45,026 bases of DNA from Gammaproteobacteria bacterium (GTDB lineage Bacteria; Pseudomonadota; Gammaproteobacteria; Eutrophobiales; Eutrophobiaceae), in assembly GCA_028281365.1 (NCBI GenBank), contig JANQJZ010000035.1:1-45026 (forward strand). Direction: 5' to 3'. The position numbers and the translations under genes were made by a program. The notes under the pieces are model-generated. The model was not told the origin of the DNA and ran no database searches. It saw only the letters and a program-made list of their open reading frames with translations. Below, in pieces: positions 9,757 through 10,401 of the stretch (its first letter is position 1; every line of letters starts with the position of its first letter).

Positions 9757-9778
9757 ATGGTGACTGTAGCTCAGTTGG
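9757..9778 (+). pseudogene. 5' fragment of tRNA-His (22-base direct repeat)
   Basis: The first 20 bases of tRNA-His plus two upstream bases (ATGGTGACTG...CAGTTGG) occur here and again at 9892-9913, where the intact tRNA-His begins. The copy stops inside the D-loop and is followed by a palindromic element. It cannot form a tRNA. Confidence 0.9.
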
Positions 9779-9893
9779 GTGAGTGATGACCGAAAGCGAA
9801 GCTTTCGCAGTATCACGAACGCGAGTCAAGGAAGACGAGCTGGTAGCCCCCACCATGGATGGATTAAGCTACGTAGGTAATTTGAAAGTCAAT
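9779..9893 (+). repeat. Palindromic element between the tRNA-His fragment and the intact tRNA-His
   Basis: This 115-base segment sits exactly between the two copies of the tRNA-His 5' end. It holds GAAAGC-GAA-GCTTTC nested within GTGAT...ATCAC, a GTC-AAGGAA-GAC hairpin (9825-9836) and CCAT-GG-ATGG (9853-9862). The last two resemble the loop-conserved hairpins of the units at 10294 and 10344, although the order is reversed here. A short open frame runs across it but has no coding support. Confidence 0.7.
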
Positions 9894-10001: not shown

Positions 10002-10077
<76 letters not shown>

Positions 10078-10156
10078 TTTTCTAACATTTAAGTAAATTT
10101 AGTATTTTTTGAATTAGTTCATCGAACCTATGGGATTAAATATTTGGTCATAGGTT

Positions 10157-10276
10157 GACAAAAGCCAGCAGAAAAATGCTCCTGCATTTTCTGCACTTCC
10201 TACGTCCATGTAGGTCGTCCCTGGCTTTCACCCTGTGGGCGGCTGCGCCGTCCAAAATTGTTCCAGACAATTTTGT
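10157..10276 (-). repeat. Insert 1 in the tRNA-Lys copy: multi-hairpin element with GACAAAA/TTTTGTC ends
   Basis: The element starts GACAAAA and ends TTTTGT, followed by the C of the tRNA piece, so its ends are inverted repeats. Within it AAAGCCAG pairs with CTGGCTTT around two hairpins: CAGAAAAATGC-TCCT-GCATTTTCTG (10169-10193) and CCTAC-GTCCAT-GTAGG (10199-10214). Then come GGGCGGC-TGC-GCCGTCC (one mismatch) and AAAATTGT-TCCAG-ACAATTTT. Read on the minus strand the first two hairpins have ATGGAC and AGGA loops, like the other family members. No open frame of note is present. Confidence 0.75.
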
Positions 10277-10289
10277 CGATCCCTATACG

Positions 10290-10389
10290 ATATACATGGA
10301 TGTGTGAGTGTCACGGTGTCAGGAAGACAAAGAGTGACCGATGCACATGGATGTGCGAGTGTCGCGATAGGCAGGATGCCGATAGCGAC
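10290..10389 (+). repeat. Insert 2 in the tRNA-Lys copy: two tandem palindromic units
   Basis: Two head-to-tail units of about 50 bases. Unit 1 has ACAT-GG-ATGT (10294-10303) then GTCAC / GTC-AGGAA-GAC / GTGAC (10310-10338). Unit 2 has CACAT-GG-ATGTG (10344-10355) then GTCGC / GGC-AGGAT-GCC / GCGAC (10361-10389). Arms differ between units but remain complementary, while the loops stay the same. Comparison with 7968-7997 adds a third arm variant. Confidence 0.75.
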
Positions 10390-10401
10390 CGGCCCACCAT
10401 T

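Follow-up and report, generated by a model that had tools for sequence, protein, structure and literature searches.

A probable tRNA-linked repeat beside a bacterial tRNA-Lys gene, and the dispersed hairpin element in its T-loop

Downstream of an intact tRNA-Lys(CTT) gene, in the 45,026 nucleotides of bacterial DNA that we analyzed (the window), there is a broken second copy of the 3′ end of that tRNA. We consider it probable that this locus is a tRNA-linked repeat (TLR), in which a mobile hairpin element, here called X, sits in the T-loop of a partial tRNA-Lys copy beside the intact gene, and that it is the scar of a mobile repeat and not a dedicated gene. TLRs were first described in 1978 and number 22 in ten loci, and their function is not settled (Stenum et al., PMC8144298); neither is their origin, and one of them lies in the rrnB terminator region of many cloning plasmids. 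Our data suggest that TLRs originate from a hairpin element that is mobile, has a fixed target in loops and has spread class-wide. Compared with the TLRs as presented in PMC8144298, the loop target, the presence in both orientations, the copies on the 5′ side, the class-wide spread and the evidence of mobility are new here. A literature search found no other paper on tRNA-linked repeats, and nothing on repeats targeted to the T-loop. The original prediction made from this DNA did not mention the resemblance to the E. coli repeats.

The broken tRNA-Lys copy in the window

Table 1. Features of the tRNA-Lys locus, in window coordinates
Feature	Coordinates	Strand	Support or remark
Intact tRNA-Lys(CTT) gene	10002..10077	+	ARAGORN; Rfam RF00005 66.6 bits
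Inverted piece ATCGAACCTATGGGATTAA, tRNA T-arm and anticodon-stem strand, AAGGTC missing	10121..10139	-	
tRNA piece GGTCATAGGTT, from the partial tRNA copy: variable loop and 5′ strand of the T-stem	10146..10156	+	
Insert 1, core hairpin element X (putative TLR core) with nested repeat; lies antisense in the tRNA T-loop and follows TCGA directly	10157..10276	-	
50-bp dispersed repeat nested in X	10168..10217	-	Relatives in many genomes of the family
tRNA piece CGATCCCTATACG, remaining T-loop, T-stem 3′ strand and start of the acceptor strand	10277..10289	+	
Insert 2, a pair of related hairpin units of 51 bp whose loops carry GGA (ACATGGATGT, GTCAGGAAGAC, GGCAGGATGCC)	10290..10389	+	
tRNA piece CGGCCCACCATT, CGGCCCACCA followed by TT, with which the partial tRNA copy ends	10390..10401	+	

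The three plus-strand pieces are all present in tRNA-Lys plus the first bases downstream of it, and they match exactly and in the order that had been predicted. The chance of one 13-mer match within 250 bp is about 4e-6 by our own arithmetic, and therefore three ordered pieces are not a chance finding. The inverted piece that was predicted to precede them, with its six-base deletion, is also confirmed: it is the reverse complement of TTAATCCC and ATAGGTTCGAT without the six bases between them. It includes 12 bp complementary to the tRNA T-arm, and in the partial copy the final bases of its pairing partner lie beyond X, on the far side. The pieces had been said to join without loss, and nothing is indeed lost, but two base pairs (CG) are repeated at the second join, where ATACG is followed by CGGCCC. 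Two inserts do split the copy; the first is composite, being X with the nested repeat, and the second is a pair of related units.

A covariance model of the first hairpin of X, R1, which was built from six copies, matched insert 1 at 10248-10280 on the minus strand with 53.8 bits. The fold z values were -3.5 on the minus strand and -5.4 on the plus strand for insert 1, and -2.8 for insert 2. The nested repeat stands after GGA in the X loop, between GCCAGGGA and TGGC on the minus strand. The GGA loops of X are on the minus strand, opposite tRNA-Lys, and those of insert 2 are on the plus strand. The seven-base sequences GACAAAA/TTTTGTC, which had been taken for the ends of the element, did not withstand comparison, since they differ between copies (the copy in genome G006 has GATGAAAG at that end), and X does not show the combination of conserved terminal inverted repeats and target duplication that marks a MITE. 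What is conserved at the end of X is a minus-strand hairpin, CAAATTTG..GGA..CAAATTTG. An Rfam scan of the window returned tRNAs alone, with nothing near significance at this locus.

An exact-pattern search of the genome contigs returned G006 and three matches in unrelated bacteria that are presumably due to chance. Downstream of tRNA-Lys(CTT), G006 has a similar inverted piece, the forward T-stem strand, a shorter insert with X and a decayed tRNA end, and it has neither the nested 50-bp repeat nor insert 2. The orthology of the two loci is based on short sequences; the score of the spacer alignment between the window and the G006 loci was reached by 1 of 1000 composition shuffles. We infer that G006 represents the state before the nested repeat and insert 2 were inserted, and this earlier state can be inferred only, because the tRNA end in G006 is decayed.

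Insert 2 and the nested repeat each represent another dispersed family of hairpin repeats with GGA loops, and in relatives these repeats form tandem and branched arrays (L040, L044 and L060). Elsewhere in the window, at 9758-9866, a 5′ partial tRNA-His copy lies upstream of the intact tRNA-His; the D-loop of this copy holds a hairpin insert of unrelated sequence (GTGAGTGATGACCGAAAGCGAAGCTTTCG..), and a relative of this insert is found in G006 within an apparent copy of a tRNA-Pro anticodon loop; thus, other hairpin elements show the same pattern of tRNA copies.

Element X across genomes

X is a dispersed, covarying hairpin element that is present in both orientations, in copies of tRNA and 5S genes and in protein genes. 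R1 matched 36 of the 53 genomes of the family, representing 17 of 18 genera (E up to 0.5), as well as 42 among the 274 genomes that were sampled from the class Gammaproteobacteria (E up to 1e-4). Across 84 distinct copies, in an alignment that was fitted to the R1 model and is biased towards it, 99.4% of pair cells were paired and double changes were seen in seven of the eight pairs, far above shuffles and slid controls. The loop sequence C-N-GGA is kept almost without exception. Tandem arrays of X, with units of about 150 bp, were found at L119, L132 and L143.

Among 70 copies in the fetched regions, 50 had a tRNA-matching junction, 38 had an intact tRNA within 350 bp, and 52 had either, compared with 23, 10 and 28, respectively, of 150 control positions; this contrast is understated, because the control loci were partly picked for elements and are biased upward. 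About a quarter of the 70 copies had no tRNA link by this automatic test, whose tRNA library was without tRNA-Phe, and three further copies (L110, L112 and L121) were read by eye as tRNA-Phe fragments. The expectation that other copies abut tRNA fragments is thus borne out. The flanking pieces match whichever tRNA adjoins, and for this reason they are foreign to the element, which disposes of the possibility that the tRNA-like pieces are part of it. Insertion at tRNA sequence, which had been suggested for both inserts, holds for the relatives of insert 1 in many genomes and at many tRNA types, but the inspected copies of insert 2 and of the nested repeat were mostly without a tie to tRNAs.

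The junctions of X are fixed in position. In antisense copies the junction repeatedly falls between tRNA nucleotides 54 and 55, at 22 nt from the 3′ end. In sense copies it follows A58 in the T-loop or, for tRNA-Ser, the GGTTGA of the D-loop. The two letters before X are GA in nearly all copies and CA in a few, and identical junctions recur in families elsewhere in the class. The 38 classified loci comprise 14 sense copies downstream, 12 antisense copies downstream and 12 sense copies upstream of the intact tRNA; no antisense copy was seen on the 5′ side, against the 12 in sense. In 20 of these 38 loci, the tRNA-complementary stretch between the copy and the intact gene was longer than in 95% of shuffles. 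At the tRNA-Lys(TTT) locus of the same genome as the window, X splits, in the T-loop, a nearly full tandem copy that has a duplicated flank.

In the window's own genome, X is also present in a 5S rRNA fragment beside an intact 5S gene (L107; G000:C13, about 56650-56920). This putative TLR lies between two terminator-like hairpins, as in the E. coli rrnB T1-T2 interval, but with X flipped to the antisense orientation.

Comparison with E. coli TLRs and other systems

The TLRs of E. coli include rttR of tyrTV, as well as RrA, RrB and RrF, which lie between dual terminators of rRNA (Rudd 1999, cited in PMC8144298). Downstream of tyrT/V, lysT/W/Y, lysV and proK in E. coli K-12, the last tRNA bases are repeated, with GGCCCG.AGGG cores, and no TLR was seen in the glyVXY and proL regions. 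In the window, the repeat starts 44 bp after tRNA-Lys, i.e., immediately downstream of the gene. The copy shares 21 identical nucleotides with the tRNA-Lys 3′ end, although these are split by insert 2 and the CG is repeated, compared with the last 18-19 bp of the upstream gene that are repeated in E. coli. In both cases the repeat follows an intact tRNA or 5S gene and consists of a hairpin, a core that may be shared (GGCCCGAAGGG) and a hairpin. The E. coli insertion point in the T-loop also comes after GA, as for X, and the tyrT, lysV and proK TLRs have an inverted T-arm piece, as at the window. Unlike the E. coli TLRs, the window locus has X in antisense, a tRNA end that is split by another repeat, and a nested repeat, and relatives are also located on the 5′ side of tRNAs, within D-loops and inside protein genes. 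Most GGA loops are missing from the E. coli tRNA TLRs.

R1 matched the rrnB T1-T2 interval (GACAAATCCGCCGGGAGCGGATTTGAACG, RrB) weakly, with 19.1 bits (E 5.5e-4 in 2.6 kb), and had no match in the tyrT TLR. The link between X and E. coli rests on the common layout and the GGCCCGAAGGGTG core, which was identified by eye in the relatives. Judged by its sequence, the window locus would be a TLR by the published definition, and a variant one in its antisense core and later insertions. The X family appears to include the E. coli TLRs.

Other small repeats share some of these properties. Rickettsia palindromic elements are small and palindromic and form in-frame insertions in protein genes; X is likened to them by this insertion behavior, and differs in taxon and in its strong bias for RNA genes. 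CsrA-sponge RNAs of the CsrB/RsmZ type have several hairpins with A-N-GGA loops and GGA in the linkers; RNA from X would resemble them in this, but X is present in many dispersed copies in both orientations.

Mobility, mechanism and alternative explanations

X moves, because empty and occupied versions of two sites in protein genes show 72-bp in-frame insertions. Both pairs are from other families of the class, outside the genus of the window. The alignment of locus L184 (G223) with L185 (G176) spans the end of a serine recombinase gene and the reading frame that follows it, and L185 contains two 72-bp copies of X, each a multiple of three bases and both after GA, that are absent from L184. 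One pair permits a 2-bp GA duplication, while the other does not. In L185 the recombinase is truncated and there is a stop within the next frame, so that this locus is itself decaying. Searches of phage and plasmid records with the gene after the L184 recombinase gave distant homologues alone (at most about 50% identity). At L184 and L185, the serine recombinase gene has a copy of X at its stop codon in both genomes, a possible link to the enzyme that mobilizes X.

REP elements with TnpA-REP or IS200-IS605 type transposases are hairpin elements that follow a short motif on its 3′ side and show no clear target duplication (PMC8266576). X, too, is a hairpin element 3′ of a short motif and may lack a target duplication, but it has no linked Y1 transposase, and genomes with many copies are entirely without Y1. 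A Y1 transposase as the obligatory mover was rejected, since its presence does not track the copy number of X; none was found in G041 (100% complete, 8 copies) or G047 (95%, 14 copies).

X is found directly after GA in either orientation, and it probably gets there by entering single-stranded hairpin loops. In tRNA and 5S genes, X persists mainly where an extra partial copy spares the original gene. In the window, X would have entered the tRNA-Lys copy in antisense, probably in an ancestor common to G006; later, the 50-bp repeat would have entered the X hairpin loop after GGA, and the two-unit 51-bp repeat the acceptor strand of the tRNA-Lys copy. The partial copy may have been made together with the insertion, or it may have been an earlier spare copy that let the insertion survive, and fold-back copying during insertion would account for the inverted T-arm piece. 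More broadly, we tentatively propose that TLRs and their class-wide relatives could be one mobile hairpin family that enters tRNA, 5S and other loops after GA by a reaction that also copies part of the RNA gene and spares the host, and whose GGA loops, which fit the CsrA motif, let copies become growth-linked CsrA-binding RNAs such as RrB. With empty and occupied sites now given, mobility and CsrA binding are directly testable.

It is conceivable, although less likely than not, that the tRNA region was first duplicated in tandem, independently of X, which inserted into the spare copy afterwards. At tRNA-Lys(TTT), the near-complete tandem copy with its duplicated flank favors a spare copy. However, many copies are truncated near X, and the excess of inverted tRNA stretches facing the intact gene also speaks against this order of events. 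Moreover, the original prediction had looked to relatives for an empty site with an uninterrupted duplicated tRNA-Lys 3′ half, and no uninterrupted partial copy was found among the relatives compared at this locus, where the partial copy and the element occurred together. The T-loop is commonly used by integrases, which leave a tRNA 3′ fragment behind, and the fragment in the window would fit this habit as the old attachment site of a lost integrase-borne island. This is highly improbable, and we rejected it: the genes nearby include cysS, a response regulator-cyclase, trigger factor and clpP, and none of the six that were tested is an integrase; copies of X are also located on the 5′ side, within D-loops and 5S, and as tandem units of about 150 bp. 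No relative with an intact integrase island between the tRNA and the same fragment was seen.

We regard a regulatory role as rather unlikely to be the explanation of the repeats. TLRs would then be CsrA-binding small RNAs from tRNA or rRNA read-through, with GGA loops kept for CsrA and the tRNA 3′ end serving as a processing signal. RrA, RrB and RrF are transcribed and processed from the tRNA or rRNA transcript, and the GGA motifs of RrB mediate its binding of CsrA in vitro (PMC8144298). The C-N-GGA of the X loops stays almost invariant while the stems covary; csrA is present in 47 of the 53 family genomes, and seven genomes have a copy of X on the same strand as csrA and within about 1 kb of it. 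Of the 64 hexaloop cores counted in 328 kb of this genome, A-N-GGA-N is the most frequent, in modest excess (16 occurrences, whereas the other cores average 4.3 and reach 10 at most). On the other hand, deletion of RrA, RrB and RrF in E. coli had modest effects only (PMC8144298), and X is found within protein genes. Relative to the tRNA, X is also antisense at the window locus and at 12 of the 38 classified loci, and it is antisense in the 5S copy of this genome. In the window, a read-through RNA would therefore not show the GGA loops of X, and for this reason the scar of a mobile repeat is ranked above a regulatory RNA at this locus. RNA from the window locus might nevertheless bind CsrA via GGA loops, and sense copies of X elsewhere may act on CsrA.

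The csrA-linked copies are at G000:C34, G002:C137, G015:C190, G047:C31, G009:C73, G011:C109 and G024:C127, where they would place GGA loops close to the csrA transcript. Those of G000 and G002 lie beside tRNA-Ser(GCT).
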